From the NCBI RefSeq assembly GCF_964355755.1, contig NC_092674.1, positions 26,462,001-26,526,000 on the forward strand: a stretch of DNA of 64,000 nt, in the 5' to 3' direction. Shown here in pieces: positions 5,035 through 63,312 of this stretch. The first letter of the stretch is position 1; every line of letters starts with the position of its first letter. The position numbers and the translations under genes were made by a program. The notes beneath the pieces are model-generated. The model made no database searches and was not told where the DNA came from. It was given only the letters and a program-made list of their open reading frames with translations. This DNA comes from Antedon mediterranea (taxonomy: Eukaryota > Echinodermata > Crinoidea > Comatulida > Antedonidae).

Positions 5035-5249
5035 AGTAATTTGGGAATGTTTGGCGCTACATCATCATACTGATGCATATACCTGGTAGTGCTACCCGGT
5101 AGCATACATTTTTTCCTATGATGTTAAAGCAGAAATCATGAATTATTCATTAGAATAATTATGACACAATATGGGACATTATAGAAAGCGATATATAAGC
5201 ATGGAGAGAGATTAAGTAATATGTGTAAACAGCTTTTGCTAACCGAAAT

Positions 5250-7855: not shown

Positions 7856-7859
7856 TCAT

Positions 7860-7975
7860 CATTTACAGGTGATATGTTTTGGAATGTCAGCTGTTATGTA
7901 ACAATGCTTTCTTTCTGTGCCGGCAGGCGGACACAAGTTCGTTACGTTTGTTTAATGTCGATAATTCAGGGTGGC
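7860..7975. repeat. half of the foldback sequence
   Basis: Identical to the first 116 bases of the left arm of the foldback at 16510. It breaks at gtggc and runs directly into channel exon 4. This is the left side of a deletion junction. Confidence 0.85.
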
Positions 7976-8915
7976 ATGACGACATCCACATTTTACATAT
8001 AGTACATCAGCAATGCATTCTTCTTCGCATATTTATTGGGTATAAACGTCAGAGTACTTTACACCATTATCTACACATTCTGATGGATATGGTTTCTTGA
8101 GTGATTTATACTAAAGTATATTAACAATATGTAAAATTGGCTAACGTATAATTTATATTATTTTTGTTTTTGGTTAAAAATCTAAAATGAGAAACGATCA
8201 TCAATCAATATTATGGTAATTTGTGATATTTGTATATTACTGAAAAAAAGCTAGATAACTCACAAGTGTTTTTCGAAATGCAACCAATGTTTCGTAACCA
8301 GGAGAAAGTGCAAAACCAAAATGTCTAACAAGAGGGCGCTCTCCTTTGCTATGTACTAGCATCTGGAATTGACAAATTAATTGTGTAAAACCTTGTTTAG
8401 AATAGTCATGAAACAAAGTTGTCATAAGAAAAGTGTTATAAAATTACCTTAAATCCTGCAGCAGAATTGGCTCCATGTGTATATTCATTTTGTTCGACAT
8501 TTAATCTCAAGTACAAGCCTCTAGATTTCCCAGACTTCTGCACCGTAAGCCGTCGGCGGTTACTCTTATGATTAAATGTATAACAAACTCCAAAATCCGT
8601 CGTCATAGCGGTTGTAAAATTCAAAGGTCCGCATTTCTCGTACAGTTCCCACGTGCAAAGCTCAATTGCGCCTTCTACTGTGTGCGCAGTCTTACGAAGT
8701 AAGTCCTCTGCGACGACAGTTTGTGCTATTTTGAGAGTTATCAGTGGTAAATATATCAATACCATCTTCGACTAATCCGAAGAAACTACTTAACATAAGC
8801 TGTTCATGTTGCCTGGTTACCGAAAGTCTCATCTCATAACATCGACAGGGGTTCGGGTGTCGAGGCTCACCATGGTTCTGGTAGTAAAACGAGTCTTGTC
8901 GGATAAGGAGGTCCA

Positions 8916-8978
8916 GTGTACACATCTGGTTCATGTGTACACATCTGGTTCATGTGTACACATCTGGTTCATGTGTAC
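8916..8978. repeat. 19 bp minisatellite, unit 2 copy
   Basis: Same three-copy 19 bp array as at 271-333, carried by the large duplication. Confidence 0.9.
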
Positions 8979-9177
8979 GTTAAGAACCTAGTACATCTTT
9001 CGAGACGAGTAGGGGTTTACCCTGGTGTACTAGTACATCACAGCCACTGATCATTACTGGGCCCTCTGGGAGACCAGTTGTTGAGGAGTCGCCCAGTTGA
9101 GAGGTCACCCAGTATAAATAAAATATTTAAATTCAATTCGAATTCTAATGAATTAACAAAGCATGTACTGTACTAGG

Positions 9178-9321
9178 CTCTGTATGAAATGCGATTTCTT
9201 AGTGAGAATACGATTAACACCATGAAGCGTAGTTTCTGGCATACAAAATCTTCAAAATGTTCTAATTCGCTATTTTTCTCCTCTCTTTCCTTCGATAAAT
9301 TATCTTTACTCTCGGGATACA
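9178..9321 (-). pseudogene. channel exon 1 relic (copy 3)
   Basis: Unit 2 counterpart of 533-676. By position it would be the first exon of truncated channel copy B (exons at 8830 and below), but the frame and donor are broken. Confidence 0.75.
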
Positions 9322-10174
9322 TTCTGTATTATAGTTTATTTTATGTCTTTCAATCGACCTGTAGTGCTGATCAGCTGTAGGGAGCAACTGACCTCATGAA
9401 ATCCATCCACCGGTCGTGATCAACGACATTCATTTTCATTTGTTAAATTTAAATATTTTTCAACCAATCACTTTCACTCACGCGTGGGAATTACCATGAA
9501 TCGTTATTTCAGACAAATTAAACATCAATACAATAAGCAAATATATAAAAACAAAACATAATTATTGTATTCAAAGTATTGTATTTTAGCCTATTCTACA
9601 AGGTGTTCGTTAGCCTATCATTTTCGTTGGAAGTAAGTTGATGTAGAAGCATTAGCAATTAGGATCTTTATTCTTCTGTCGTGGAATTAATACAAAAATT
9701 AAGAGAATGATAAAGAATAAGAGATGAACAAGTAATAAAGTCTGATAGATGGAAAAATGATACAAAACGAACAAGAAGTTTTGTTTGAAGAAGAATTCTG
9801 TCTGTAGTAAAGAGCTAGAATGGCCTGATATTGGGTTACAAGTATGTTTAACCTGAAACGGAGATTATAACGATTATTAACCTCTTTCTTGGAACTATAA
9901 GTATATTATTAGTATTTAATAGAATTTATATTTCGTTGTTTGTTGTATTGAATTGATTTTACTCTATTAACGTCTAATTGTACATCAGTACATCTTTCGA
10001 GACGAGTAGGGGTTTACCCTGGTGTACTAGTACATCACAGCCACTGATCATTACTGGGGCCTCTGGGAGACCAGTTGTTGAGGAGTCGCCCAGTTGAGAG
10101 GTCACCCAGTATAAATAAAATATTTAAATTCAATTCGAATTCTAATGAATTAACAAAGCATGTACTGTACTAGG

Positions 10175-10318
10175 CTCTGTATGAAATGCGATTTCTTAGT
10201 GAGAATACGATTAACACCATGAAGCGTAGTTTCTGGCATACAAAATCTTCAAAATGTTCTAATTCGCTATTTTTCTCCTCTCTTTCCTTCGATAAATTAT
10301 CTTTACTCTCGGGATACA
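10175..10318 (-). pseudogene. channel exon 1 relic (copy 4)
   Basis: Unit 2 counterpart of 1530-1673, with the same defects. Confidence 0.75.
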
Positions 10319-13092
10319 TTCTGTATTATAGTTTATTTTATGTCTTTCAATCGACCTGTAGTGCTGGTCAGCTGTAGGGAGCAACTGACCTCATGAAATC
10401 CATCCACCGGTCGTGATCAACGACATTCATTTTCATTTGTTAAATTTAAATATTTTTCAACCAATCACTTTCACTCACTCGTGGGAATTACCATGAATCG
10501 TTATTTCAGACAAATTAAACATCAATACAATAAGCAAATATATAAAAACAAAACAAATTATTGTATTCAAAGTATTGTATTTTAGCCTATTCTACAAGGT
10601 GTTCGTTAGCCTATCATTTTCGTTGGAAGTAAGTTGATGTAGATGCATTAGCAATTAGGATCTTTATTCTTCTGTCGTGGAATTAATACAAAAATTAAGA
10701 GAATGATAAAGAATAAGAGATGAACAAGTAATAAAGTCTGATAGATGGAAAAATGATACAAAACGAACAAAAAGTTTTGTTTGAAGAAGAATTCTGTCTA
10801 TAGTAAAGAGCTAGAATGGCCTGATATTGGGTTACAAGTATGTTTAACCTGAAACGGAGATTATAACGATTATTAACCTCTTTCTTGGAACTATAAGTAT
10901 ATTATTAGTATTTAATAGAATTTATATTTCGTTGTTTGTTGTATTGAATTGATTTTACTCTATTAACGTCTAATTGTACATCATTCATTATTAATATTAG
11001 GCTAATTACAATTAATAATTAGTGATTAGCCTAATGAAAATAATTAAGATTTTGATTACAAGACAAGTCTTTGGAAATGAACAATTTCTTTGAAAATGAA
11101 AATATTATTTTTTTATGTAGATTAGATCAACCCAATGGCGCCCACCAATTAGAAAATAATGTTAAATAAATCAATGTTAAGTAGGTAATTGTAGAGCCTT
11201 ACATGAGGACAATTAGATCAAAGGCGGTGTAATGACGTCGTGAAAACATCCATCTTTATAAACTGATTAAAGACCATTTACTTTACAGTATATTGTCGCT
11301 CAATAAACTACTTAAATAATCGCCAACACAATGACTGAAAGATTTACCTTTATACAATTTGAAAAAAAAATGTTTGCCAGTTAAACGCAACGCAGCAACG
11401 TAGGCATATTGACGCAAAGTTTGTATTGCGTATCAAACGTGGGAATATATATTGATATATAATACTAATACTATTCAGAATTACTATAATATTCTAATTA
11501 AAAAAGTTTTTCAATCGACAAAGTACTTTCAGAGACATTTCGTATTATGTCTAAAATAAGATAAGAATCAATTAATTTCAATTAATAATTGTTGAAAATT
11601 GTTTGTTTCTTTGCTTGTTTATGTTTCTTTTAACATCAGCTTACAGTACCATCTGCGGAGTGAATAACTACTTAGAATTAGTCAGAGAGCTAAGTATATT
11701 GGTCAAATATTTGCCCTACTCTGATGTAATTGTACTACTGTATGTAATAAGATAGGCTACTTTGATGGGGATTCCAACCCGCGACCGCCATATCATTAGC
11801 CTGGCGTTCATACCTCTAGATCTAGAGCTTACCTGATAGTGATATAGTAATCATTACGTCCGAGTATACAAACATCTGACCAGTTCATACGATACAGAGA
11901 TATTCAACAAAAATAGATCACAACTTTTGTGCTATTTTAAAGCTAATTACATTTATTTACAACACATTAAATTAATGTTACATTACAATAATGTTGTAAA
12001 TGGTGGCGGACGGAAGCAAAACAAAATATAAATACAGAACTCTGATCAGAACTACAGATGCATTTTACAGTATAAGTACAATGTGAAAGATTGTTGAAAC
12101 AAATCAATGGAATTCAGTATGGTATAGCGAATCCTAAAACTGAAACCTAAAACTTACAACTAGTAAATCATTCTACAATACATTTTAGAAAGAGGTATCG
12201 TTCTACCCATTATTATGATCCCATCTAATCAGAACCACAAAGTTAGTAAGTTTTACTAAACAATCCACCAATAATGATTAAATTCAATTCAATAAAACTT
12301 TAACTTTATTATTCCAAACTGGGAAATTCGTTTTGTCGTCAACGTGGTAGACATAATATTCATAAAAATACACACACAAAATACAAAAACCACAACAATC
12401 ATTTTAAAAATCTGAAATATTTTAAAATACCGTACACTACTAAAATAGACTTCTGTCACAAATACAGTACTGATAATCAATTAAGTTACAAATAGTCAAA
12501 ATATGTTACCTAAAATGAACATTGTAACATTAGGCAACCACACTCCAAATTCATGAACACTGTACGACACAAATGTTACTTGAGAACATAATTAATATTC
12601 TCGAAAAATGACATTGGTTTCAAAATAATATTGTATACACAATTTAACTTTCGATAAACCAATTATCAAGAACTCACAAATATCCGAAACGTAGCAAGTG
12701 AGTACTTGATAATTGGTTTATGGAAAGTTAAATTTGTTATACAATAATAGAAGTATTTAAAACAAAGCTATATCAGAAGAGTTAAGTAAAAGATATAAGT
12801 AAAGCGTCGTCTACATCGCTCTTATTAACAATGACGTCATTTGATTGGTTGTGAAAAACTATTATTTTCATCAAAGATAGCATAAAAAATGATCATATAT
12901 ATTTCTAATGGTGAAATCTTATCTAATGTCTTTTGTTTTATAAGCAAATGCATATTTATTTAGTAACCGTCGTCAATCATTATCGTCCTAGAAATGGGCC
13001 TACACATTTTCCAGACGCACAGCAAATATGAAATAATTTTTTTATATAACAATTACATTTACACCTACGGTAGCACGCGTCCGAGTTTATTT

Positions 13093-13190
13093 TATTAGCT
13101 TTAATCTTTCCGTACATTTAATTTTTCTTCTTTTTTTTTGTTTACGTGATATGGTAACAATCGTGAATACAAAGCAACACATAATACTCC
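13093..13190 (-). pseudogene. MFSD8 last-exon fragment (unit 2)
   Basis: Unit 2 copy of the 4448-4545 fragment. It sits about 110 bases below the stop codon of the intact channel gene and may be part of that gene's 3' untranslated region. Confidence 0.65.
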
Positions 13191-13299
13191 ACCAGTCTTT
13201 TGAGACTTACATGTACTCAAATGCAAGTATTCATTTATTTTTAATTTGATTTTCCTCCAGATAAAGAATATTTTCGTCGATTTCCATCAGTATTTTTAC

Positions 13300-16200
13300 T
13301 TATGTTACTACGTCTCCAACTTTTTTCCCTTTTGGTAAACATTTACCAAATGACATACAGACAAATTCGACAATCTCAATGATTGTCATCACGCTCATTC
13401 CACATAGCAATCCCATCAAGCCACCAATGTCACCTTCAAAAAAAGACACACAAGATAATTGAACTATACATAAGTTTGACTGCACCAATTACATATACTT
13501 TTATTATCACGATGTCAAATGTATGCTGTCTACACTATAAAAGTAGTTTGAAAAAAAGTGTGATGTGCCCACTCGATGTGCCTAAATATAGTAATGATTT
13601 ACCTAAATATGGTCATCAAGACCATAAAACGGTACATCACATTTTGTTTGATAAAGTTTGATAGTGCAGACAGAGCTTAAGTAATTTGGGAATGTTTGGC
13701 GCTACATCATCATACTGATGCATATACCTGGTAGTGCTACCCGGTAGCATACATTTTTTCCTATGATGTTAAAGCAGAAATCATGAATTATTCATTAGAA
13801 TAATTATGACACAATATGGGACATTATAGAAAGCGATATATAAGCATGGAGAGAGATTAAGTAATATGTGTAAACAGCTTTTGCTAACCGAAATGTTTAG
13901 TCTAGTGGTAAAGACTTTTTAAAACTTCTTAGAATGGAGCCATCGGTTCGAGGTCTATCAAGAACCTGCTTTTTTTTAATAGTTGAGAGAGATTATTTAG
14001 AGGCTTAGGTTTAGTATATTTAAGAAGTAAATCAGCTATCTTGAAATTCTTTAGAATAGAAAATAATTAAGGTAATGAATTATTCATGATTTGAATGCTG
14101 AAAAATAATGATACCGGTAGCCACTTTGGTATCTCTGATGGATTTTGTGTTTGCATATATATTAATATTTACTAGGCCTACTGTATAAAAAAAATTAAAT
14201 CAATTAAATTACACAAATATAAAATAATAAAATAAAATAATAATAATAAAATTAAGATAAACTTACAAAGTAATTTGATTGGTGAATACGCTGGAACTTG
14301 TTCCACAAATTCATAACTTATATCTTCGTAATACAGATAAACGTCAAGATAGTTCTTTCTGTTAAAATATAGAAATAATTTAATTAGCTTTTCTTTTTTC
14401 GAAAAAGGCCGCGTTCTTATTCCGATTCCTTCTTCACAATCAAATAATAAAATCAATAATAGAAATAATTGCGTAATTTAAAAATGCATATACATTTTTA
14501 ATTGATGCAGGGTGACCCATATTGTTCATTTCATTTTCTTAGAATCATATCATCATCATAGGTATGATTACCCAGTCAGTCTCTGCTGACTGCTGGGTAT
14601 TGTTTCACAATTGCGCGTGGTGGTGGAAAATTATTTTTGAAGCCAAATGTTAAAATCGGTAAGGCCTCTAAACGCGGCGTCCGATTGTGTTGTGTGCTGC
14701 GCCATCTTGTGCCCCCCCCCCCCCCCCCCTAACCTGGCAAATTATATCTTGTTCGTGAGTTTGTTGTCGGAGGTCGGAGAAAGAGGCTAACCTGGTCGAT
14801 GCTTTTTGCTCTCCTGGGATTTTGTAATCTAGATGACGTCAGCCATGAACATACTCACCTGTCGGTTGTCTAAATGTTCATTCGGCTTAATGCAGCGGTG
14901 ATGAACGAACGGAACCAAACGATACCAAATGGAAACAAACAAAACTCAGAATGTTGCAAAGCCTACCAAACGAGAGTAGATAACTGTTTATTAATTATCA
15001 AAACTAATCTTTTCTAGCAGAAATCGTCCGATTGTATGTTAAAAACGATATATTTAGCAACCAACATGCTTGGTTCACTGAAACAATGCACAACCATTTA
15101 TAAATATATTTCAATAATAATATTTTTCCGATAATATAACCTATAATACATTTTTGTTGGTTTCGCATATAAAATCTTTTGAACAGACCATACTTTTCCA
15201 AAGTCTTAGGTGGTCTGGATTCTCAATCGAGATAAATGGAAATTTGAACCAGATAAATCAGTAATCTTCCCAATGTCGAGAAAAGTCGACACATTCCTAA
15301 CTTCCTAGCCCTCTAGGGTTTGGAAAGTAAAACAATGAGGTCAAGGGGTAAATTATATTTGCTTGCGAAATATGGAAACGCGATTTTTGCTATTTGAAAA
15401 TACTTCATAAAATCATTTGAAAAAAGTTTATTTTTTTTTAATTTGTTGTAATCATGATTGCATAGTAAGTACATAGAACTCACTAATTGATGTGCGAGGA
15501 ATTTTAGAGGAAAAGCTAGGCCAAGGCATGTAGCGATAGAAATTAATTCGCCTGCTGGAAACGTTCTTGGCATCATTGAAGAATGGATTGACATTAAGGA
15601 CTAGGCCTAGACAAACCGTATGGCAGGGGGTAAGAATAGTTTTTTTTTTGTCTTGTGTGGGTTCGTCCCACTTTTATTATAGTTCTATAAATATAAATAA
15701 TATATGTATATATGCACATTTATATAATTCTCTTATTTATAAGGTACATTGTTAAAAAATACATATCTTTTGAACAGTATATACATAAGACTAAGATTAT
15801 TTTGATGTTAAGAAGTAACCATATTTACATTCATATACATTTTTAAAAATACAATTAATTAAAATATGTCGATGGCAGTAAACTGACGATAAAAATTGAT
15901 TTTAAAAAAAACGTACTTATGAAAAAGTTATTATTGTTGTTTTATTCTGTTCGTGTCCATTGTCTGGGTAGAGAGGCTATAAACTCAGGGGAAGAATATA
16001 AAGAATCTTCCCTTTTCACCAAGAAAAAATGGATGAGATGAAAACGAAGAATGCAAAAGCTTGAAAAAAGGGTGTTTAGAATGGATAGGATAGAATGATA
16101 TATATAGTGAAAACCGTAAGGTTAGAGTCCATACACAGTGCAGGGGGTAAGAATAGTTTATAATTTCACATAAGGATATGGTTTTTACAATCATACTTGC

Positions 16201-19200
16201 TTAGATAAATGCACGTATATGTATTTATAAATGAAAATTTATTATCAAATGTTTATATTTCGTGTTTATTTACCTCCGCTAAGGGACTCAAGGAGGTATA
16301 TGTAATCGGTCGCGTGTGTTTGTTTGTTTGTCTGTTTGTTTGTTTGTTAGCAGGATTACTCAAAAAGTAATTACAAGATCTTTACCAAAATGAATATACA
16401 GATAGATATGTGGTCAAGGACCATTCCATGGTCCCAATTCTGGACCACTTTTAATATACTTTTCAGACCCGCTAGTGTTAAAAGATTTTTCAAAAGCCGG
16501 CGATATCATCATTTACAGGTGATATGTTTTGGAATGTCAGCTGTTATGTAACAATGCTTTCTTTCTGTGCCGGCAGGCGGACACAAGTTCGTTACGTTTG
16601 TTTAATGTCGATAATTCAGGGTGGCGGATGATAAATAATTTCTCTTTGAGGCAGAGGTTGCATTTTTTGTTTGCGCTACTATATGCTTTAGTAGATGTCA
16701 AGATGCGCCATGAGATTGTATAGTCTCATAGGACAATAACACAGACTATACAATCTCATGGCGCATCTTGACATCTACTAAAGCATATAGTAGCGCAAAC
16801 AAAAAATGCAATCTCTGCCTCAAAGAGAAATTATTTATCATCCGCCACCCTGAATTATCGACATTAAACAAACGTAACGAACTTGTGTCCGCCTGCCGGC
16901 ACAGAAAGAAAGCATTGTTACATAACTGCTGACATTCCAAAACATATCACCTGTAAATGCTAATTCTACAAGTAAATGTGCTTATAAGCAGCGTTGTAAT
17001 TGGTTCTTCTCATTATAGTCTCCTGATGAGTGAGTTGCACGACTCACGAAACAAGCCTGTAGAGACCAAACTGTAGTTTTTACTTCTTTTCCAGACTTAA
17101 CGTATATTTTAGCTCTACTTTACCGTATTGAGCACTTTCTAAACGGTTACATTGAACCGAACATTTATATATATATATATATATTTTCCCGGAGAAATTT
17201 TATGTAGAATAATTTTACAGTAGGCGGAGGTATGCACTCGACTCTCGGAACGGCTTTCTAGTTACTAACAAATTTGCTAAGTAGCCTAGCCAAAAACAAA
17301 CTTCTTTAGTACAGTACTTTCATTTACAATTTTCTTATAGATATTTTTAACATGTATATCAAAAGATAGCACATTTATTAAGAAATACTTGCTTTTAGAA
17401 AATGTTTTTCCTAAAACTTGAAAAAAATATGTAAACAGCTACATGAAAGAAACAAAAATCAACCTCTAAAAATGTGAAAATGATCACTATCAAAAAAGAA
17501 TGCGTTTTCATGTGAACTGCGCTTAAAAAAACTCCGGTATGATAGTAGTTTTAATAAATTTAGTAGTAATTGGGAGATAAAAGACATTGAAGCCCACATA
17601 AAAGCTTTGAAATGATGGATCCTCTTAATGAATGGTAGAAACTTCGTTGTTAAAACGCTTCCAAACTGAATGACATTGCAATTATCTTTCAGTACCTCAC
17701 AAAGTTTTTAACATATAAATAAATTAGTGGTTTTTGGCGTTTTTAGTCGCGACTCTACAGCTCATTATGTCTGCAGCTATGTATAGGCCTACTCTGGCCT
17801 TGTTTGGAAAAGAGCTGAAGTTATGAGGTGTCGTATCTGAATTTATTTAGCACGTTTGAAAATATTTTATCTTTCATTTTGTTGAATCGGCGAAATAGCG
17901 ATGTGGAATAACATTCCTTTGAATGAACTTTGATCTTTGCTTGAAATCAACTTATTTATTATTTGTTATTTATACTGGGTGACCTCTTCAAAGTTATAAA
18001 GGGTCCAGTTATGATGAATGACTCTGTGTGACAATGGTTGTATCTTTCTTCTGATTGCGTTACTGAGGTTTGATCTTAACGACCGGTAAATGAAAAATAA
18101 ATCAATGTTACATGCTAACACAAAACCGTTTACGAAAATGCTTTAAGGAATTACATGTATATAAGTTTTAAAAAAACATGAATGTAAACAAATGAGAAAA
18201 AAAACAATGTTAGGAAAAACAAATGTTATCGGATTAATAAAGAAAGTGTGATAAGAATATATTTATATTTATAGTTGAATAAAAGTAAAACTTAAGTAAG
18301 CGGATGAAAATAGTAAGGGTTAATTACTATCCATGTAAAGAATACTACACACTATTGACCACTTTTGTGTTGACAACCATGTCCATGCTTGATGCAACAA
18401 ATAAATAGTAAATAATATCTTACTTTATCGTCTCTGTGGACTTATTCAAATGGTGCTCGAGATGTTCCAAGAAGTGATCCCCCGGCCATAAGGCAGATGA
18501 TACCTTGGTAGAGTATTCCTTATATTGGCATCCAATCCGACATTTACAGTGTGTGTTCGTTTGTACAATTTTTTCTAAGATTAAAACATTGCAACATTTA
18601 GTTAATGGTTTGAACGTGTCATGTCCATGCTGTAAGTTCATGTAAGAATTCAATAGTAGTAAGTAGTAGTAAATTTCACACAAAAGATTTTTTTTTAATA
18701 ATTCAAATAATAAAATTTCTTATTTAAAACATAAATTGAATGAACATTTTAGATTTCACATACCTGCCTCTGGTACTACACATTCGACTGCCTCCTCTAC
18801 AGTACAGTTCTTCTGGTCCGAATATCCTTAAAAAATAAGTTATATAAGAGAATATATCATTCAAAGCGTACCTGCATACGTCATTAAAGCTTACCTGGAT
18901 ACGTCAATAAAGCTTACCTGGATACGTAATTAAGGCTTACCCGGATACTTCATTAAAGTTTACTTGGACACGTCATTACAGCTTACCTGGATACGTCATT
19001 AAAGCTTACCTGGACACGTCATTAAAGTTTACCTGGACACGTCATTAAACTTACCTGGACACGTCATTACAGCGTACCCAGATACGTCATTATAGCTTAC
19101 CTGGACACATCAGAGTGTAGCTTGCGTACCTGGATAAGTCATGTTAGCATACCTGGATAGAATGTGTGCCGACATCCACATTTTTCATATAGTACATCAG

Positions 19201-20609
19201 CAATGCATTCTTCTTCGCATAATGATTGAGTATAAACGTCAGAGTACTTTATACCCTCATCTACACATTCTGATGGATATGGTTTCTTGAGTGATTTATA
19301 CTACAGTAAATTAAACAGATTTTCAAAAAATATAGGCCTACCGTATATAAAATTGCCTTAAGCTAACAAGGTTTGTTTTTGTTTTCAAAGATGTACAATC
19401 TAAAACACGAAACGATTAAAAATCAATAATATGGGGAACAAATTGTGATTGTGATTTAAATACTGTAAATAACTCACAAGTATTTTTCGAAATGCAACCA
19501 ATGTTTCGTAACCAGGACCAAGTGCAAAACCAAACTGGCTAATAAGAGGGCGCTCTCCTTTGGTATGCACCAGCATCTGAAATTAAAAATAAAAATTAAT
19601 TCTGCTTTGTTTAGGAATTGTCATAAACAAAGTTTTTAAACAAAAAGTGTCAAAAAATTACCTTAAATCCTGCAGCAGAATTGGCCCCATGTGTATATTC
19701 ATGTTGTTCGATATTTAACCTCAAGTACAAGCCTCTGGATTTCCCAGACTTCTGCACCATGAGCCGTCTGGGGTTACTTTTATGATTAAAAGTATAACAA
19801 ACTCCAAAATCCGTCATAACCGTTGTAAAATTCAAAGGTCCGCATTCCTCGTACAGTTCCCATGTACACAGCTCAACCGCGCCTTCTACTGTGTGCGCAG
19901 TTTTACGAATTAAGTCCTCTGCAACGATTGTTGTGTTGATTTCCGAGAAATCAGCGGTAAATATATCAATTCCATCCTCGACCAATCCGAAGAAACTGCC
20001 CAACATAGAGAGTTCATTTGGCGTGGTTACCGAAAGTCTCGCGTGGTTGTAGTTACAGAATGTGACTGACGGAAATTCCAGCTCATCTAATTGTTTTATT
20101 GCAATTGTTGTTGACATTGGCCGAGAGAAGAAATAAAGTATATTCTCGAAAGCATAGACTCCGAGAAGACTGATTGCCCCTGCCAAAAATATGAACCACG
20201 CACATCTGAAAGTAGTGTTAAACATATCGCAAATACCTCCAGATTTATTCAGCAAATATAATCAATTAATTGCTAGGACCTTATGAAGAAATTAATTTTA
20301 TATGGCATTGTAATATTATAATCTTTTACATAAGATGAAAGCTCGTGGTTCCCACTGGGATGCAACGCAAGGAGGGAGTAAGCGCAACACAAGTAATTTG
20401 CCCAAATAGAAGTGATGGATTTTTGCAACTGTAGCTAAACAGAAATTTAAAAAAAAATACCTCTGTATGAAATGTGATTTCTTAGTGACGATATGATTAA
20501 CGCCATGAAGTGTGGTTTCTTCACCAAACCGACCTACAACGTCTTTAAAATATTCTGATTTGTCAGTTGTCTCTCCTTCATTCGGTAAATTTCTCTCCAC
20601 GGTATTCAT
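13300..20609 (-). CDS. ASIC/degenerin-type sodium channel, 8 exons
   Basis: Subunit of the trimeric, amiloride-type cation channel family (ASIC/ENaC/degenerin), plasma membrane. Exons, from the 5' end: 20609-20461, 20205-19662, 19576-19478, 19300-19153, 18826-18764, 18574-18424, 14358-14267, 13433-13300. All joins have GT-AG sites and matching phase; total 459 residues, slightly short for ASICs (about 510-530). Seen: HG motif (His35-Gly36 in TLHGVNHI), TM1 about 51-75, FPSVTFCN just after it, a cysteine-rich extracellular domain, the pre-TM2 region DVYLYYEDISYEF, DIGG and the GMS selectivity filter (427-429), TM2 and a short basic tail. Exons 1-6 are diverged from copy B, while exons 7-8 lie in the duplicated unit and are identical to it. 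Intron 6 (4 kb) holds the foldback and ribozyme motif. The ligand cannot be told. Confidence 0.88.
16271..16505. repeat. dispersed repeat with GTTT microsatellite (unit 2)
   Basis: Unit 2 copy of 7621-7855. It lies immediately left of the foldback, inside intron 6 of the intact channel gene. Confidence 0.55.
16510..16959. repeat. 450 bp near-perfect foldback (inverted repeat)
   Basis: Two arms of 217 bases (16510-16726 and 16743-16959) are reverse complements with about two mismatches, around a 16-base loop. I see no clear target-site duplication or transposon end motif. Each arm has an open frame of 64 codons, but it matches no family I know. It lies in channel intron 6, and its left arm overlaps the end of the 8.65 kb duplication. 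Alternatives are a young foldback MITE, a palindromic rearrangement product, or an assembly artefact. Confidence 0.93.
17018..17066 (+). ncRNA. type I hammerhead ribozyme motif
   Basis: All core elements are present in order. Stem I gtctc (17018-17022) is followed by core ctgatga (17023-17029), stem II gtgagt/actcac (17030-17035, 17042-17047) with loop tgcacg, and core gaaa (17048-17051). A very short stem III (ac/gt) has loop aagcct, the cleavage triplet is gta ending at 17061, and gagac (17062-17066) closes stem I. Open stem I and a two-base-pair stem III are the form known from Penelope-like retroelements and metazoan retrozymes. It lies on the strand opposite the channel gene, so it is not made in that pre-mRNA. 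Likely a retroelement remnant; no reverse transcriptase is visible nearby. Confidence 0.85.
17167..17184. repeat. AT dinucleotide repeat
   Basis: Short at microsatellite, about nine units, 100 bases downstream of the hammerhead motif. Confidence 0.8.
18866..19160. repeat. 23 bp minisatellite made of splice-donor-like units
   Basis: About 12 diverged copies of a 23-base unit such as gcttacctggatacgtcatt followed by aaa. On the coding (minus) strand each unit carries TATCCAG|GTAAGC, a consensus 5' splice site. The array abuts exon 4 of the channel gene, whose real donor (CTATCCAG|GTATGC at 19153) looks like the terminal unit. The array occupies most of intron 4. Confidence 0.93.
20337..20400. 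repeat. MITE family 1 fragment
   Basis: Left-end half element, ctcgtggttcccactgggat followed by gcaacgcaagg, in channel intron 1 just below exon 1. The right end is missing. Confidence 0.6.
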
Positions 20610-30295: not shown

Positions 30296-32234
30296 TTATG
30301 GTGTTGGACATTCCGATTTCATGATACACCTGTCCTCGTGCAGCACACGACCTGCTGGGCAGTAGCATCCCGGTTCACACTGTCGGTGGCCACAAGAGGA
30401 GTCCAGCTTCCTAGCAGTGAAGCAAGTCAGTTGGCACTCTGGAGAAGGACCACAATCATCATACAAGAAACCCGGTTCGCACTTTACACCTAGAAAACAA
30501 ACAGGTAAACTTTTAATTATTAGGCATACGTGTTAATTGTATTTCAAACACAGAAAGACCATATTGGCTTCCAAACAAGTATCCACTAGTAAAACCACTA
30601 GTTTACTTTGCACGTGAGAGTATAGAGTATAATATGTTCATGTTTTGCAGTACAAAATGACACATTCCCATAAGTTTGCTACTTCGATAATTAGTCTCCA
30701 GAACCAGACTATTATACATCGGTCCAGACGTTATGATGCATCTGCACCAAATCGCAGGCTGCAAAGGGATCTGCGCATCAAGTTGACCAAGCATACATTG
30801 TATTAGTTATAGTTATATTGTATCTATTGTCTACTTACCGCATTGTGACAATTTTCCATTATAATTCTGAAGATCTACGTTCTGTCTTTGACATTCTGTA
30901 ACATAAGCTGATAGAGATTGACAGAAACACGGTTTGTTAATACCACATACGCACGAGTCTTGCATGCAGAGGTAATAATAGTCATGTGGCTCAACGAACG
31001 AATGGCAAGCAGACAATTGACCAATTACAATGTCTTCACATTGAGTTCGCGCGTAATCAAGAACATACTGCGGTTTCCCGACGCAAGCTGGGAAATATTC
31101 CCTGGTGATGACGTTATCGTTGATGTCTGGATCTTCTTGAACCCTTTCATCTTTACAATGCCTATAACCTTTGACCTTCCAACTGTGTACCAATTCTTCG
31201 ACGCTTTTTGATGGCAGTTTTTGTCGTGTCAATGAATCATCCTTCTTATCTTTATTCATATTCCCACACAGTCCTTCCATCATTCCACTGTATTGACTTG
31301 GTACATAAATAGTTACTTTTCCATCTTCTTTCCAGATGAGTTTTACGCCACGATTAGTTATAACAGACACACCCATTGTACCAAATTCAGATATAAGGAC
31401 ATTTTGCGGATTATCATGCAGATATGGCAGTTGCACTGATTTACCAGAGACTGTCACAGACCCGTTGAAGTCAATATACACCAAGACGCAATCAATATTC
31501 AGATAAATAGCCTTCTCTGTGTAGTTTTGATTATGTTCAAGTTGAATTGAAAAATTGCCTGTGACGTAATCTCTTGCCATTGTATAACGACAATCGCCAT
31601 TGGCCAGAAACGAGTGGTCATCAAACGTCCATACTTTTTTGTTTGGCAAGATTATGCACCTTGCTGGTTCTGAAAAAAGAACATACAAGAATCTTGTTCA
31701 AACGTCTCTGAACATACTAAATTATTAACAATGATGATCTAGGCCTATAATTTACGTTCTCTTACCTGACAGACACGATGGACAACAAGTCCCAGGAAAG
31801 TGAAATGATTGTTCATTCTATAAAACAAGAAAAATATTTTCTATAGTGAATTTTTATCTTTAGAAGTTTGATACAACTGTAACGTATAAATAGATATTGC
31901 ATTTTCCTTTCCTATCCCCAATACTTGTATATAATAATACCTCAGAACATTCTAAATCTGGACACGTTTTTTGAACGCATCTCGGCCGACCGTCGACGCA
32001 ACTACACTCGGAACAATTTTCACCAGACCACCTTTCACCGACCTATACAAACATTAACATTAAAATACAGTATGAATAACAAATATTTAATTCCATACAA
32101 AATTAGTACATTTAATTACAGAAAGGTTTCTTGAAAATATTCGTTCAATACTAGTCAGGAAAAAAAACGTAAGCTACTAAAAAGTTGCTGACTCACCCTG
32201 TACACTACATCTTCGTGTTTACAATAACTGATAT
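30296..32234 (-). other. exons 26-30: VWC, VWD-C8 and TIL domains
   Basis: A VWC domain is split over a 38-base microexon (32234-32197: [13 protein letters not shown]), 32042-31941 ([16 protein letters not shown]) and 31817-31766 (FPGTCCPSC). Exon 31669-30839 holds a complete VWD ([11 protein letters not shown] ... [13 protein letters not shown]) and C8. Exon 30489-30296 holds a TIL module ([11 protein letters not shown] ... [18 protein letters not shown]) and the stop CPTP-TAA. VWC-VWD-C8-TIL is the C-terminal order of BMPER/crossveinless-2. Confidence 0.88.
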
Positions 32235-45046: not shown

Positions 45047-48000
45047 ATCAAATTGAAGATAGGTTTATCAAACGTTTGTATTTCCTGCTTTTTTGAATTG
45101 ATTTCCGTGATATTGAGGATCAGAGAACTTGGCAGTGAACTGCTACCACTACCACATGATGTAACAAGAAATACTGTGCAATAGTACATTTTAATAGTGA
45201 CTATATTGCATCATATATTTTTAGTTTTATTAGGTCTTATCTTGTTTTCTCCTTTATGCAATAGTACATTTTAATAGTTTAGTGACTATTGCATCATATA
45301 TTTTTAGTTTTATTAGGTCTTATCTTGTTTTGTCCTTTGTGCAATAGTACATTTTAATAGTTTAGTGACTATTGCATCATATATTTTTAGTTTTATTAGG
45401 TCTTATCTTGTTTTCTCCTTTGTGCAATAGTACATTTTAATAGTTTAGTGACTATTGCATAATATATTTGTAGTTCTGTCAGGTCTTATCTTCCTTTGTG
45501 CAATAGTGCATTTTTTTAGGATACTTAAGTGGCTATTGCATTATATTTTGTAGTTCTATTAGGTATTATCTTGTTTTCTCCCTGTTCAATAGTTTGTTTT
45601 TTTTTCTTTGGGATACTTAAGTGGCTATATTGCATACAGGCCTTTTCCTTTTTGGCCATTCTCAAGAAACAATATTAAGTTAATTATACATTAAATGAAG
45701 AGGGAGGGAACTACCATGAACACATAGATGCTGAAATACTAACGTAAAACGGTGCAAACATCTTGCCCTAAAATGAACTCGAAATAAAAGAAATTTCTCC
45801 CCAATATATTAAGGACTAGAACAAAAAATAAATCCATATTTTTATTCTATAAGGCCTACGGAGTTTAAAAGAAAAAAAAATGAATTTTGGCAAATGGTTT
45901 GGTGATTATTGTCACGTAGGTCTATATATTTAAAACTTTATTGTAAGCCTACGTGATATGATCGTTGTTTCCAGATCGTTGTCAAAATCAATCAATCGAA
46001 TAACATGTACAAATCGAACTATAATTCAAACCAACCTACCCAAACCGACGCGTGTATTTACGACCAAACCGGGCTGCAATGCGGATTTTCGATAACACAA
46101 GGAAGTAGACCCAATAATATAATAATATAACAATAAGGAAACCATAAGGTTGAGATTCCAAGGCAAGGCGATTACCGGTATAATTAAAACTCTATTCCTC
46201 GTGTTATACAGTAATTATATTGATAAAGATAACGTATTGGTTACATTGTTTTCCCTACGGAATATAACTTAGTGCTTCCTAAGGGAAAATAGCTCCCAGT
46301 CCCCAATGTCGTTGGAGCGTTCCGGTGTAGGCCTACTTAAAATCGTGCAATCGGCCTAATCACCACATATAAAAATAGATTTATAAAATAAATACATTAA
46401 AGTTATTTTTTATTTATATCACTAGGCCTATTTAGTTTTACAATATTTTAGATTATAGGTGGATTTGCCTCTGCGGCTGTATTGGGATATCTTGTGTATA
46501 GATTATCATTTATAAAGTAGATAATATAAATTGTTGAAGCTGAAGCAAGGAAATTAACTTTTCAAACATACCACTGGTACAGTTAATTGATTGGCAAAAC
46601 TATAGTATGAAGTGAGCCCTCTATAACATCAATTTAACTACGTGTTAGTTCGGTTTCAGAGCCATAATTATACAGGATATATAATATGGCTCTGTTCTGT
46701 TTAATTGTAGTGAGCCCTCTATAGTTCTGTTTCCAAAACTTTTTCTCGAAAATATTGGCGCCCACAATTTACTTTAATTTCCAATCAATTTTACAAACGA
46801 ATTCCGAGCACTTCAAATATAAACCTGACAGTTGTTCCTCATAGCTATTTACAGCACATATAGACTAGGTACTTTCCCAAAATTATTTAATAGCTTATTG
46901 TTCTGTTCGTTAATTTTAATAACCTTCATATAAGTGGTGTAGATAAAAGAAAAGAGTTGCATAACAAGATCGTTTTTGGCAACTGTTACTTTGTTCCAGG
47001 GTATTCGGTATCAAAGTAAGCCTATATTTAGTCTTGAACGTGCATGTATGGTCACCTCGTGTTTCCTCTGATCTTGAGTCCTTAACTGGACCTTATATTT
47101 AGGGCAGGTTAAGAAATGCAGCGTATTTCAAAATTGTTTTACTTTGAATGTATTAATGTTAACGTCCCCCGGATGTTCAGGCTTACATTCTTGGCTTTGC
47201 GTGACCAGAACGTTGAAAACTATGGGTTCTTAGCCTACGTTTTCCCATACCGTTAACGGAAGTGAGTCCGGCAAAAGTACCACATAGTTCCCCATCCAAG
47301 CCACAGTACGTGAATTTGTCCTTCCCGGATTGACATCTCTATGTATTGTTCAACTTTATGTGCTTAGTTGCTTAAGATAATTCCCGAACAATTTTGCCTC
47401 GTTCAAGTCCCATTATATATGGAGGCAACATCGGATATGCATGGGCCGGGTATGAATGATTGAAACATTAAAACAATAACATTTTCTTTAAGCAATCTTC
47501 AGTAAGCTGAAAAGTTTAATATATTGTTAAAGATCCGTTGGTGCAGTTAGGCTATTTGAAATTTTAGCAATTTATAAATTGTAAGGTTTTAGGAACATTC
47601 TAATGGTTTGAATCCTTTTAAAGCTGTTTTAAACTATTCTAATCTCCTGAATCCTATTCAATTTTAATACCTTGTCATTTTTACACCGTGTTTCATAACT
47701 TATATTTTTTTTGTGCAATTATGTGTGTGTACATAATATATTATATTTTATATCTATTTATTATTTTACTAATAATTGTCAATTTTCAAGAAGAATTTCT
47801 GTTGTTATTTTATGATGATGATGGACAAATAAAGCATTTCAGTATTCAGTATTCAGTAAGTTATAAATTAGGAGTAGCAGCCGCGCGCGAATATACGAAT
47901 TTGTCAGAGAGGTCCTGAACAGTGTGTGTACATTGTATAGGCTGCACGCTGTGTGGGCAAGTTCTTGGTGATCCAAAATAACGTCTGAACCGCGTGTACA

Positions 48001-48602
48001 GTATAGGCATGCACACTGTGCAAGGTGTTTAGGTTTATTCTGATGGTTGTTCAAAATGTGCAAAACAATGTACAGATTAAAAAAGAAATTGATATTAAAC
48101 CTTTTTTATGATTTCGAGGAGTAGGGTTTAATGTTTTATACATCCGGCTGCCTTCGTTAGATATCTCAACTTCCATTACCACTTGGCAGGATATTTGTTT
48201 TATGGAAATCCTCTGGATTTCCTGAATGGAAACAGAACTTCCTGTGGGAAGTACAAAATAATCCGTTGGCATTCCATAAACAGCTTTGAGGTTCATTAGT
48301 AGATACCACCTCCATAGAATAAATGTTTGTTTTATTTTTTTTAAATAGGTTTATTATAATGCACTGGTAGGCCTCTAAAAAAGATAAAGGACTTCCAACA
48401 TTTTTTCTATTTTCGATAATAATCTTTTATAGCTATATGATGCTTAGCAAGTTTATTATTATTTAGATAATGTGGCATTATACAGGTATTTTATCAATGT
48501 TATCTTGCACATATTATACACATATTCCTATCTCCATTCCGATACTAGGCCTACCGCACTTGTATTGTAAACTTTTTTAGAAGGCCTACACTGTGTGTGC
48601 TA
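45047..48602. other. spacer upstream of the SVEP1-like gene
   Basis: AT-rich, with a minisatellite at 45177-45640 and no coding region I can support. It probably includes the promoter of the SVEP1-like gene near 45050-45200. A short direct repeat agtgagccctctata occurs near 46611 and 46710. Confidence 0.5.
45177..45640. repeat. about 83 bp minisatellite, five to six units
   Basis: Units begin tgcaatagtacattttaata and contain gtgactattgcatcatatat and attaggtcttatcttgtttt. The first copies are nearly identical and later ones shorten and diverge. Each unit contains a small inverted pair, gcaatagt/actattgc. Confidence 0.9.
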
Positions 48603-49371
48603 TAGCAGGGTTGCTAACTTCCATTTTTTATGAAGATTGTGCATTTTGTGACAAAAGCACCAATTTTGGCACAAACCTTCTTTAGGGTATATCTAACAAT
48701 CCTAGAAGGGGTGCCCAAAAATCGGAACAATTTAACGACGTCATTTGGACCACGCCCTTTTTTGAGTATTACGTAATTAGGTGAAAACTTAAATCTTAGT
48801 ATATACATACCAAGTTTGGTATCAAATTAAAACTCATGACATGTACATTGCAATACACACATAGCAAATATATGATTTCTCTTCAGACGGAATATATAGG
48901 TCAAATAATGTAATTTTCTGTCATATTGAAGGGAATTTCAATCAAAACGCGCCAATATTGGGCTATGTTATGAACATTGTAGTTATAAGAACAACAACAT
49001 TCATTTTTGTAATAGAACTACAGTACTAAAATATATTTATCCTGTATCAGTTACTTTCCTTTAACATAATATTAGGAACCACCGAAAAAAAGTATATAAA
49101 ACATATACTGTATCAAACTTGGCTCAATAATCACTGGACTAAGTAAACAGACAAAAGACCATTTGACTGACAATTATGGCGTTAGCATCCATAACAATAC
49201 ATGGAGGTGATTTTCAACTTTACTTTTATGAAATTATTTATCTGGAAACAAACACTTATAATGGTACAGAGTTGCTAGATGACGAACAAGTTCCACGGCA
49301 TGGGTAACAAAGACCAGTGCAAAAAAGACCTGCTGAACGGCACTTGCAGTTCCCTGAGCAATGCAGGCAAC
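48603..49371. repeat. left terminal inverted repeat of the CXC element
   Basis: Reverse complement of 51303-52045 with scattered differences and an extra 10-odd bases near the tip. On the minus strand it still encodes the CXC-motif end (CSGNCKCRSAG ... CYPCRGTC, 49256-49456), so the gene's last codons are present as an inverted copy at the element's left side. Confidence 0.88.
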
Positions 49372-49374
49372 CAA

Positions 49375-51408
49375 TTCCTCGATAATTGTTCAGAACTTCT
49401 GGTCTTGGATGCTCGAGATTGTGCCAATGAAAGTGCAGTAGTGACAGTTCGTACAATTCAGGATGTAGGTACTACCCAGTACAAACAATATTTCAAGGAA
49501 GTTATTCTCAACAGAAGTGTTGCAATTCAACAAGCCATCAAACAGAATAAGCTGCCGTTGTTCAACACACCATGGTCAAAATCAGTGTCCAAAACAAAGC
49601 AACAAGTTAAGAGTTTAAAAAGTGACTGCAGCCTATTCAGTCGACTGTATATTGCAAGTCAATCTAGTGATGGAGATTTGGAAGACATCTTCATGCATGA
49701 AAACCAGCCATGGCAACCCTCTGGCAGTAAATGGAAAGCTTCGACTACCAACTAAGAAGTCTGAGTTGCTACAGCATTTGGAGACTGAAGGCCAGCCTGA
49801 ACCTCTTACATATTTTGACGTAAAGGTGTTTGACAGAGCTGCTATTGTCCATGCCCTTTCCAGCACCCATGCATTTACATTTGATGACTACGGTGATAAG
49901 GTGAGTACATTTCTTTGCATTCAGGATTGTATCTATTGTTTAACCACCACATAATTGGTCACTTCTATATGCGGATCGTTATTCTTGTATCATTTGTATG
50001 ACAGGTCTTTCTACCGTGGACCAGACAGCAGCTGCAGAATAGTAACAGAATTGATATAGTGGGGGACACTTACAGAACAGATAGTCTTAAGCAGTCTACA
50101 GGAGAAAAAAGAGGAAAAGGGGTCAAGAGGAAAGTTGGGGGACAAACAAAGATTCCAGGGAATTTTCCAGAATTTCTGAAAGATCCAGTAAATAAAGAGG
50201 AGTTATTTAACTTTTTAACTACAAAGGTGTCTACCCATGATTACTCTGACTGCAAAGAAGTTTACATTACATCAGGTAAGTTTTATTATGATACATACTC
50301 ATTTATTTTGTTTGTAACCAAACGATTAAGTTACTTATACAGTTTCATACCAATAATTAATTAAAAAGGCATATTAAATTAGTAAGTAATTCTTGATATA
50401 TGTCCTGTAGGCGAGTCTGTTGTATGTTGACATCTACTCAACCTATGTCAATCTGCGACCATGAAGAGGCCGACTCCAGGATGTGCATTCACATTGATGA
50501 TGCCTTAAAGAAAGGTAGCAGGGTTATTTTGGTGCGTACAGTTGATACTGATGTCGTCGTTATCCTGGTTGGTATTTTCTGCAATCTAATAGCCTGTTAT
50601 CTTGGTACGTGTATCTGGGTCGCATTTGGCATGCGTAAGCACTTCCAATATTTTAATATAAATACCATCTGCCATAACCTAGGAGAGGATAAGTCAAGAG
50701 GGCTGCCAGTTTTTCATGCATTTACTGGGTCCGATACTACATCCCAGTTCTTCGGAAAATCAAAACACTCCGCATGGGAGACGTGGAACTCATTTCCAGC
50801 AGTCACAGAAGCCTTTCTTTTCATGGCACATCACCCTTTCAAATCTCTAGGAGTCAACTCATCTCAATTCCAGTTGCTAGATGAGTTTACATGTCATCTA
50901 TACGACAAGACAAGTACTTTAAGAAGTGTTACTAAGCTAAGACAAGATCTTTTTTCAAGAAAGGCACGGACAATGGACAACATTCCTCCTACACAGGTAA
51001 GGGGAGCTTCCATATAATTGTCAATTGTCGTTTAATAATTTATTATCAGATTCATGTTTTTCTTTCATTAAAAGGTAACACCAATCTTTAAATTGTTTAT
51101 TGCAGGATGCACTTTTACAGCATTCCAACAGATCCATATACCAAGCAAGCATTTGGACCACCAGTCTACAGCCACAGCAGAATGCTCCATCACCAGAAGA
51201 CTTTGGTTGGACTAAAACCGGCAGTACATGGACACCAGTCTGGACAATACTACCTGAAGCATCCAAGGCATGTAGGGAATTGCTAAAGTGTGGCTGCAAA
51301 AAGTTGCCTTTTTGCTCAGGGAACTGCAAGTGTCGTTCAGCAGTGCACTGGTCTTGTTACCCATGCCGTGGAACTTGTTCGTCATCTAGCAACTCTGTAC
51401 CATTATAA
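49375..51408 (+). pseudogene. CXC-motif protein of the mobile element (broken)
   Basis: Exons by splice sites: about 49375-49900, 50005-50275, 50411-50996 and 51105-51408. Family stretches read SDCSLFSRLYIASQ, HENQPWQP, GDTYRTDSLKQST, PGNFPEFLKDP, CDHEEADSRMCIHIDDAL, VRTVDTDVVVILVG, FHAFTGSDTTSQFFGK, DNIPPTQ, then a cysteine-rich CXC (tesmin/TSO1-like) end CGCKK...CSGNCKCRSA. There is a frame change near 49715 and another just after the third exon's acceptor (TGA in the expected frame), so the gene is dead. The acidic HEEAD and VDTDVVV stretches look like conserved active or metal-binding sites, but I do not know the reaction. Confidence 0.72.
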
Positions 51409-52045
51409 GCGTTTGTTTCCAGATAAATAATTTCATAAAAGTAAGGTTGATAATCACCTCCATGTATTGTTATGGTTGCTAACGCCATAATTGTCAGTCA
51501 AATGGTCTTTTGTCGGTTTACTAATAGTCCAGTGGTTATTGAGCCAAGTTTGATACAGTATATGTTTTATATACCTTTTTTCAGTGGTTCCTAATATTAT
51601 GTTAAAGGAAAGTAACTGGTACATGATAAATATACATTAGTACTATTACAAAAATGAATGTTGTTGTTCTTATAACTACAATGCTCATAACATAGCACAA
51701 TATTGGCACGTTTTGATTGAAATACCCTTCAATATGACAGAAAATTACATTATTTGACCTATATATTCCGTCTGAAGAGAAATCATATATTGTTTATGTG
51801 TGTATTGCAATGTACATGTCATGAGTTTTTATTTGATACCAAACTTGGTATGTATATACGAAGATTTAAGTTTTCACCTAATTACGTAATACTAAAAAAA
51901 GGGCGTGGTCCAAATGACGTCGTTAAATTGTTCCGATTTTTGGGCACCCCTTCTAGGATTGTTAGATATACCCTAAAGAAGGTTTGTGCCAAATTTGGTG
52001 CTTTTGTCACAAAGTGCACAAAAAAAGTGCTAAGTTACCCTGCTA
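51303..52045. repeat. right terminal inverted repeat of the CXC element
   Basis: Contains the last 35 codons of the CXC gene and its 3' flank. An incidental open frame at 51845-52095 is present on both arms and is probably a shadow of the repeat. Confidence 0.88.
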
Positions 52046-55000
52046 CTATTTTAAGACCTGAAAATATCAGTCTTATGAATAGCGCCCTCTATTAATATTT
52101 ACGTAAAACTGTGCCGAATCGTTCCGCTGCCGTTCGTACCTTCAAGAAAAATAAAGAGAAAGAGAGAATAATAATTGTGGTTCAACATCCTAACATTTGG
52201 TTTAATTGACTTTAGATTTCAAATTGAAGACAAACATAATAATTCGTTATTACTAAATGGTGTTTTTGACGTATATTCATTGCACGAATGACGTAATCGC
52301 TCTGCCGTTGACTTTTTGATTACGTAATAGATTTTGTTAATTGCAAATAGATGGGTTTAGTATTAATACTTGTTAGTTGTGAGATTATATAGAAAAGTCA
52401 CTCATGTTGTATTATTGTTATCCTAATATCCTTACACGTGCTGAGTTCTGACTTATTGCTAAAACCGGTATTTTTTTTTTCCAAGGCTCCGTGCAGGCAT
52501 CCTACTTTGCGTAAGCTTTTAAAAGCAAAATAAATGTCTTATGAATTGAAAACTGAACGAAAAGTAAATGGGACTTCAATTGATAACTGCTATATTTGAA
52601 TACTTACGTTTTAGTAGACATATTAGTGCGTCGAGTGCTAAGTGTGATCGTAAAAAAACAAGTAGATCTAAAAACGTACAGCCAAAGTATGGAAGATAAG
52701 ATTGTTTTGAAAATCGTCAAGTTATCAATGGTTCTTAAACGTTTGATGGAAACACGGATTTTATTTCAAGATGTTGACGATTTCAAGTATGCTATAAAAG
52801 AATCCATTATCGCGAATATGATATTCCGGCGCAAAAATTATGAATATTGTTCATATTTTGCGATGCTCAAATGTAATTTAGAGAGATAAACTCTCGTCCA
52901 ATCAGAACTGGGAATATTATCCCTCAGGCAGGTTGCTACTCAGCGATGCGTATTGTTACACAAAAATCCCGCTGAGTGAAGAGCACAGTATTTACATTGT
53001 GGTGGCTAACCAAAAGGATTTCATAGAAACTTAGCCTAGATGTTCAGCTTTTATCCGCTGAGTGATTGTAAGAAAACATCATGATGACTATTTCGACGGA
53101 AATGTAGTAATAGATGTGGATGTATTAGCTGCGTTGCTTCTTTTTATTGGATTCATAAACCAGGCCGGACCAGCAGGAGCATTATGTCATCGTTTGTACG
53201 AAGTTTTAGCCTGCGTGAGCGCCGATCCAAGTCGAGCACATGGGACCGGTTAATAAACAGAAACAGAAACAGACGGTTAATAGGTTTGTGCTTTTTATTA
53301 CGTTTTCATAATTCATTTAAAAAAAAAGAATAATAAAATAATAACCACAGATCTTCCAGAAGTTGTAGGTGACAATGGTGTTTATTATTGTTTACTTTGC
53401 GTCCGATTTCTAGACCAATTTAGGGTGACCTATTTTTTAAGGCAAATTAATTGGGTCATCGTCTGATTATACCTCCCTGGTCTGATGTACCCGAGTGACG
53501 TCACTTAGTAGTGTAGGGTATTGGCACAACCAATGTTAAACCTGATTTTGTTTTTTTGAAACTTAATTAAAACATGCTTAAAAGAAAGAATTTTAAAGAT
53601 ACAAACATTTAATTGAAAATACTTAATCGTGTGTATATACTGTATATAATAACTTTATAGGCCTGTAACATTATAGAGAAATGGTTGTACTTTCATTCAG
53701 TTTAGTTTTAAATAAATCTTAATTTATCTCGCATAAGAATTCCAAAACTATAATGCTCTTACCGTAATTGTGACTGTCATTTACACATCAAAACCAAGCC
53801 GATTACCAGTTCCTGTTCTCCTTTCAGTCGCGGCACGTTCAGCTACTCATTGAGGGGTGACTCGCGTCGTGCATCACTCACTATTAATGTTCTGGTTGGA
53901 CATCATTGATCTGTCAATGTTTTAATGTTGTTTTATAAGCTAAAACGAAGTGTTTTAAATTGCGTCAATAACATTTCTTAATCGTTCGTCTTGGGAACAT
54001 GGTTATCTGTACAGACTGTCAATGTAATCAAAACAAAGCTTACTTTAATACAAAATCCTTTTTTTTTATGTAACAGGACTTTCAAATATTATATTCTTAT
54101 TCATTCAAATTCATCTAGTTATATTATTCTCGACAAAAATATCTTCATTAATTAATGCCCCTCCCCAAACCACACTCCTTTCCTCTAAATCACAGTATCC
54201 TCCATCCCCTGGGGTGGTTATAAAATTTAGTTTTTAAACCATTCCCAATACAATTATGCTTAATTTGGTATGCCAGTACAATTCTAGATATGTAACTATC
54301 AACAATTTGTATAACAAATGAACAACCTCTCTCTCTCTGTCTTATAATAAAATATATTACAATAAATTGTATAAAGAAAACATTTTTTAAAGTCTGCCTC
54401 CAATTTTATTTGGTACATTTTTTACGATAAATAATTATTATTGATTATTTGCTGGTATTCAATTTAATGCTAAATAATTATGAATTTCACCTTGTTCATT
54501 AACCTACACTGAAATCTGCAACGCTAGACTTAATCAGTGTTTTAAAGAATAATTTTAATATTTAACACATCTTTTAAAAAGTAGTTGCCTGAAATATAAC
54601 CTTTGACCTTGAATATAATCAGGCTGGCAAGTACTTTATCCTGGATAATATGTTAAGCCATTTCATATACCACTATACCTGGCATACAAGGCTAAATCTG
54701 TGAATAACTAGTGTACAGGTTACCCTCCATTTAAAGACCATGTTTTAGAATTACTCGTGTTTAATCCCTATTTTTAAAAAATATTTCAAAATAAAGAAAA
54801 TTTTCATTTGGAAAAACTAATTATAGTTGAAATGCTAAATGGCAAACCTTGATCATAAAATTATCATTTAAATATAAACTATAAAGGTATATGACAGAGT
54901 TTTTATGATTACAATTCATTATGATATGATTAATAATTATGTTTTTGTCCTGAAATAGCATACAAAATGAAAGAAAACCAACATATTAAATAAGTTTATA

Positions 55001-62965: not shown

Positions 62966-63312
62966 GATATAGTAGTAACCGTCATATTAAAAATGACCAT
63001 AAAATTAACAATAGAACTTGGTTCAAATCAAAGCGTGGTAGACAGAATAGTACCTATAGTAAAAGTACAAATAGAACTTGGTTCAAATCAAAGCGTGGTA
63101 GACAGAATAGTACCTATAGTAAAAGTACAAATAGAACTTGGTTCAAATCAAAGCGTGGTAGACAGAATAGTACCTATAGTAAAAGTACAAATAGAACTTG
63201 GTTCAAATCAAAGCGTGGTAGACAGAATAGTACCTATAGTAAAAGTACAAATAGAACTTGGTTCAAATCAAAGCGTGGTAGACAGAATAGTACCTATAGT
63301 AAAAGTGTATAG
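62966..63312 (+). other. open frame with five 20-residue repeats
   Basis: After an acceptor-like tttttctgactatag at 62951-62965 an open frame reads GYSSNRHIKNDHKINN, then five identical copies of RTWFKSKRGRQNSTYSKSTN and a stop. It is strongly basic. It may be a coding exon with an expanding minisatellite, or a non-coding minisatellite that happens to be open in two frames because its unit is a multiple of three. Confidence 0.3.
63011..63306. repeat. 60 bp perfect minisatellite, five copies
   Basis: Unit starts atagaacttggttcaaatca and ends cctatagtaaaagt. The five copies show no substitutions among them until the last four bases. Perfect identity indicates very recent expansion. Confidence 0.97.

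Follow-up and report, generated by a model that had tools for sequence, protein, structure and literature searches.

A 64,000-nucleotide stretch of the Antedon mediterranea genome, here called the window, contains at positions 48603–52045 a sequence that raises a simple question: is it a mobile element and, if so, what kind of enzyme belongs to it? The first-pass annotation had proposed a DNA transposon with tagcaggg/ccctgcta termini and inverted repeats of about 750 bp. It was thought to carry a gene from a repeated family with HEEAD and VDTDVVV stretches, of unknown enzymology and with no recognisable transposase, and it might therefore stand for a transposon class with an uncharacterised recombinase. 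Our analysis confirms the transposon and leads to another view of its enzyme. We consider it very probable that we are dealing with a non-autonomous deletion derivative from the AcademX lineage of the Academ superfamily, with the full history that we propose below.

Limits and copies of the element

Positions 48603–52045 of the window are a complete mobile element, and together with its flanks it reads CTA-TAGCAGGG...CCCTGCTA-CTA, that is, with a 3-bp target-site duplication on both sides (Table 1). The inverted arms, 769 and 743 bp long, are 93.6% identical over 737 aligned columns. The boundaries are those set by the first-pass annotation, the termini and long inverted repeats that it described are there, and the element is a real transposon.

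Table 1. Features of the element and its gene remnant, in window coordinates
Feature	Position	Strand	Remarks
Target-site duplication, left copy (CTA)	48600..48602	.	3-bp duplications in other paired copies too
Left inverted-repeat arm, L-type terminus TAGCAGGGTTGCTAACTTCC	48603..49371	+	Inner end with inverted copy of the gene's last exon
Exon 1a, linker between transposase and nuclease halves	49348..49731	+	Matches L043 aa 179-309; homology starts at arm/interior junction
Exon 1b, nuclease start, VFD motif	49733..49903	+	Out of frame with 1a
Exon 2, D.Y....SLK.....R motif, XPG-N-like	50005..50280	+	Motif match
Exon 3, HEEAD, VDTD, GSDTTS; XPG-I and helix-hairpin-like motifs	50421..50999	+	Open in the window copy
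Exon 4, C-terminal CXC cysteine-rich tail	51103..51408	+	3' part (from 51303) within right arm; intact relatives match Pfam TCR/CXC weakly
Right inverted-repeat arm, R-type terminus TAGCAGGGTAACTTAGCACTTTT (outside-in reading)	51303..52045	-	Arm alignment
Target-site duplication, right copy (CTA)	52046..52048	.	Flank inspection

The 354-Mb assembly (18 contigs) was searched for further copies. The left-end 20-mer TAGCAGGGTTGCTAACTTCC has 40 exact matches and the right-end 23-mer TAGCAGGGTAACTTAGCACTTTT has 35, and the reversed control of each has none. Thirty-one left ends are paired with a right end, at a spacing of 2.9–4.0 kb in 30 of the 31 pairs and of 3.2–3.8 kb in almost all of them; 29 of the paired copies are 2.9–3.8 kb long, one is 4.0 kb and one 5.3 kb. 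In addition to the window copy with its CTA, 19 paired copies were checked for target-site duplications. A perfect 3-bp duplication flanks 17 of them, while about 0.3 matches are expected by chance among 19 copies; one of the remaining two has a single-base match and the other has none. The duplicated sequences vary (TAA, TAG, CAA, TAC, CTA, CCA, AAC and others). All fetched copies of this group, which we call family 1, have the long arms and the interior in common, and the shortened family amounts to about 40 copies. The protein family is likewise repeated in the genome, as had been supposed (150 matches scored among 406 candidates), and no relatives were found in viral contigs. As the left flank of the window copy occurs only once in the assembly, it offers no paralogous empty site for comparison.

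Several other features lie elsewhere in the window. Positions 1–7975 and 8646–16625 form a tandem duplication of ~8.6 kb with 99.9% identity, including a nested 998-bp duplication (345–1342/1342–2338) that occurs again in the second copy; the large duplication is either very recent or an assembly artefact. A 450-bp palindrome at 16510–16959 (96% self-complementary) is possibly foldback or MITE-like. Tandem repeats are found at 63010–63306 (a perfect 60-bp unit, 4.9 copies at 100%) and 45175–45593 (an 83-bp unit, 5.1 copies). On the minus strand, the ORF at 19650–20261 resembles a degenerin/ENaC-type channel and that at 30831–31697 a von Willebrand factor type D domain, in both cases by eye only.

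The gene remnant and its intact relatives

The interior between the arms holds a broken plus-strand gene in four or five pieces, the HEEAD/VDTDVVV exon included. The break between exons 1a and 1b is caused by a 2-nt deletion private to the window copy. Homology to the full protein starts at residue 179 of the relative L043, past the DDE residues, and a Pfam scan of the read-through window protein gave no match.

The nature of the encoded protein was approached through its relatives. In an alignment of 12 sequences (A1), residues D86, K94, R101, E175, D177, D201, D203 and D264 are invariant, in the order and of the type known from the active site and helix-hairpin of FEN1/EXO1/XPG. The profile-profile score against FEN1/EXO1 is 34.5, whereas 150 column-shuffled controls reach no more than 23.2, and upon realignment with FEN1/EXO1 all acidic motifs are colinear and in register. 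The statistics are modest: hhalign gives an E value of 0.0014 for a single comparison, and among the rows compared the archaeal FEN1 sequences were taken from loci while EXO1, human FEN1 and P. furiosus FEN1 were entered by hand; of these, the one from P. furiosus agrees with PDB 1b43 along its whole length. Genome scans with Pfam XPG_I (PF00867, E up to 10) and XPG_I_2 had no match at the known Academ loci. Because Pfam XPG_I misses the nuclease half, it is motifs and profile comparison that carry the FEN1 assignment. A PDB search with one relative returned nothing useful, and with the profile the best sensible match was Exonuclease 1 at a non-significant E of 0.5. A single-sequence AlphaFold model of window exon 3 alone had a mean pLDDT of 36 and was discarded. 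Likeness to the Rad2 nucleases FEN1, EXO1 and XPG lies in the colinear D, D..K..R, EEAD, D.D and GCD motifs, whereas the Academ half differs from them in falling below the Pfam XPG_I threshold, in its spacing, in its CXC tail and in its location within a transposase gene. We regard it as well supported, at the level of sequence rather than structure, that the C-terminal half is a FEN1/XPG-like nuclease, and we read HEEAD and VDTDVVV as motifs of a nuclease of this type. In place of unknown enzymology, motifs and profile comparison thus point to a FEN1/XPG-like accessory nuclease.

Long open frames related to the remnant occur in the same genome, encoding bipartite proteins of 1547 (L039), 1555 (L040) and 1524 aa (L078); the frames of further relatives, as read, encode 1371 (L080), 1360 (L082) and 1247 aa (L045). 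Alignment of the relatives reveals N-terminal CxxC/HxxC fingers, a middle domain, a nuclease-like domain and, in most of them, a CXC tail. For the middle domain the Pfam match is DUF6589, which exceeds the curated cut-off in L045 (E 9.6e-07) and L080 (E 7.7e-08) and is weaker in the others. Invariant in this half are DNxD at 491/494, the D of vDQ at 658 and DxxxE at 895/899 (L039 numbering), the make-up expected of a DDE transposase, whose catalytic residues would be among them. A single ORF holds both the nuclease and the DUF6589-type half in L039, L040, L045, L078, L080 and L082. A DDD/E-type transposase domain is therefore absent from the window copy and present, as the DUF6589 half, in intact relatives. 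The statement that no transposase can be recognised holds for the window copy taken alone but not for the family, and the apparent lack is a deletion. Since the DDE half is absent, the window copy is filed as a non-autonomous derivative and not as an autonomous member, and the idea of an uncharacterised recombinase finds no support.

Deletion history and alternative explanations

Two sub-types of family 1 were read; both are missing the DDE half and record its loss. Sub-type 1B (e.g. C10:11726958-11730650) is longer by ~360 bp of coding DNA, which corresponds to the end of that half. Sub-type 1A looks like 1B minus this stretch, which may have been lost at a short CAA microhomology; as 1B keeps part of the DDE half, 1A is the deletion product. 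When the DDE half of family 2 (see below) was searched against the genome, family-1 copies were reached mainly via the fragment in 1B, and 1A gave no match. Towards the interior both arms consist of the last exon of the gene, coding in the right arm and inverted in the left; the arms thus represent the right end of the element itself, duplicated in inverted orientation and reaching into the gene. Between 1A and 1B the L- and R-type termini are swapped relative to the gene, which could be explained by recombination between the arms. The window copy and its relatives with the same ends are deletion derivatives. Between exact family-1 ends (TAGCAGGG arms) no full-length element was found in the assembly, a search that may miss diverged ends. 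The only pair longer than 4.1 kb, L066 (C5:23542710-23548055; ~1.9 kb longer), was considered as a full-length partner and rejected, its extra sequence being unrelated. Within that extra sequence lies a 167-aa ORF (L066:5112-5615) that is gag-like by eye.

Family 2 (L067–L069) has ends TAGTGGGG, similar to those of family 1, termini TAGTGGGGTGCC or TAGTAGGGTGCC, and 3-bp duplications TAT and TAA. The copy with both halves (L067 and L084) is ~6 kb long with arms of 607 bp at 99.5% identity. Its deletion derivatives measure 3,756 bp between arm ends (L068) and 4,437 bp (L069), with arms 99.5–99.7% identical. Full-length and deleted copies of family 2 show the same full-length-to-deleted route within one genome.

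According to the history that we propose, the ancestor would have encoded one protein of ~1,550 aa with N-terminal zinc fingers, a DUF6589 DDE domain, a FEN1/XPG-like structure-specific nuclease and a CXC tail. The progenitor of family 1 would have lost the zinc-finger and DDE half. Its left arm may have arisen when the right end, last exon included, was copied in inverted orientation, probably by template switching during gap repair. Amplification to ~40 copies would then be the work, in trans, of a DDE transposase that uses the TAGCAGGG ends and produces 3-bp duplications; it is most likely that family-1 copies moved in trans. In the autonomous relatives, fold and co-conservation suggest that the DDE half would cut and join the ends, and that the flap-type nuclease would trim strand-transfer or excision intermediates.

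Could the structure have arisen without any transposon? The first-pass annotation had pointed out that, if the ends or inverted repeats were unique to this locus, an ordinary gene fragment would simply have been duplicated locally in inverted orientation, and the last exon of the gene is indeed present, inverted, in the left arm. However, copies with the same ends, arms and junction are spread over all eleven large contigs, where they occupy many loci and have different flanking sequences and 3-bp target duplications. Shared ends and target duplications refute a local event, to which we assign practically no probability. Alternatively, a fragment of an AcademX gene might have been captured by a non-autonomous element from a different superfamily such as Kolobok, in line with the failure to find a full-length copy between family-1 arms. 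Against such a capture, family 2, whose AcademX-type coding region has both halves, shares the TAG[CT][AG]GGG termini and the 3-bp duplications. Kolobok makes 4-bp TTAA duplications (PMC9587614), and there are none among the copies examined, where the duplications are 3 bp long and varied in sequence. We find the capture very unlikely.

It is also conceivable that the FEN1/XPG-like protein alone moves the element, with no DDE enzyme involved. In favour of this, exon 3 is open in at least 14 copies and the acidic motif positions are kept in the window copy. The substitutions speak otherwise: 15 copies of exon 3 aligned gap-free have 15 synonymous and 37 non-synonymous changes, where a neutral simulation expects 14 synonymous, in a small test that weak constraint could escape. 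Neutral drift of exon 3 and the private 2-nt deletion fit passengers moved in trans and lend no support to a functional nuclease-only element. Moreover, the DUF6589 half is present in intact relatives wherever the whole gene is readable, and sub-type 1B retains part of it, 1A being the deletion product. A transposon of the nuclease-only kind is thus highly unlikely. That the shortened element is itself competent, i.e. that the nuclease with its CXC DNA-binding tail suffices to excise or copy it and some copies are active, appears extremely unlikely.

Place within the Academ superfamily

Returning to a deletion-derived Academ element moved in trans, we compared it with the known groups. Academ is a recognised DDD/E superfamily (PMC9587614). 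According to PMC10045372, elements of the AcademX lineage (Kojima 2020, cited there) encode a nuclease and leave duplications of 3 or 4 bp, and those of AcademH encode a helicase and leave duplications of 9 or 10 bp. Both families described here have duplications of AcademX length, and motifs, profile comparison and the shared ORF of the relatives argue for an XPG-type nuclease encoded together with the transposase, its acidic active-site residues being in order in A1. The AcademX nuclease is of the XPG type in the Repbase description; among the papers searched for Academ with XPG, none says so. In a comparison of duplication length, gene partner and domain make-up, the nuclease partner, the DDE half and the 3-bp duplications fit the AcademX lineage. 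In intact relatives both halves are joined in one protein, and the full-length relative of ~6 kb is close to the mean length given for Academ elements in bivalves (5,565 bp; PMC10294476). The window family differs from AcademX in the loss of the zinc-finger/DDE half and in its 740–770-bp arms, which contain the 3' end of the gene. It resembles long-TIR, foldback-like non-autonomous derivatives in having arms extended inward by inverted duplication, an internal deletion and many copies, but its interior retains most of the nuclease coding region. Family 1 is a new non-autonomous family within a known superfamily.

AcademH shares the DUF6589 domain and differs by a helicase in place of the nuclease and by its longer duplications. 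At the strongest DUF6589 match in the genome (L141; G000:C5:20780000-20788500), the other strand carries DEAD and Helicase_C ORFs within ~1–3 kb of the DUF6589 ORF; no clear terminal inverted repeats were found there. This is a candidate AcademH-like locus, the helicase being the partner expected for AcademH. Another locus (L040 with L085; G000:C10:12118500-12128500) holds the 1555-aa open AcademX-like ORF between element ends TAGTCTGGGAGCCC, with ~289-bp tandem repeats in the right arm and no obvious target duplication.

A candidate for a new transposon class is removed by these results. What is gained is a traceable history, with intact AcademX-type proteins, a family that has both full-length and deleted copies, and a family known from deletion products only. 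The part played by a flap-type nuclease in Academ transposition is poorly studied, and a genome with several open AcademX-type frames of ~1,500 codons and a putative AcademH-like locus would be useful for testing it.
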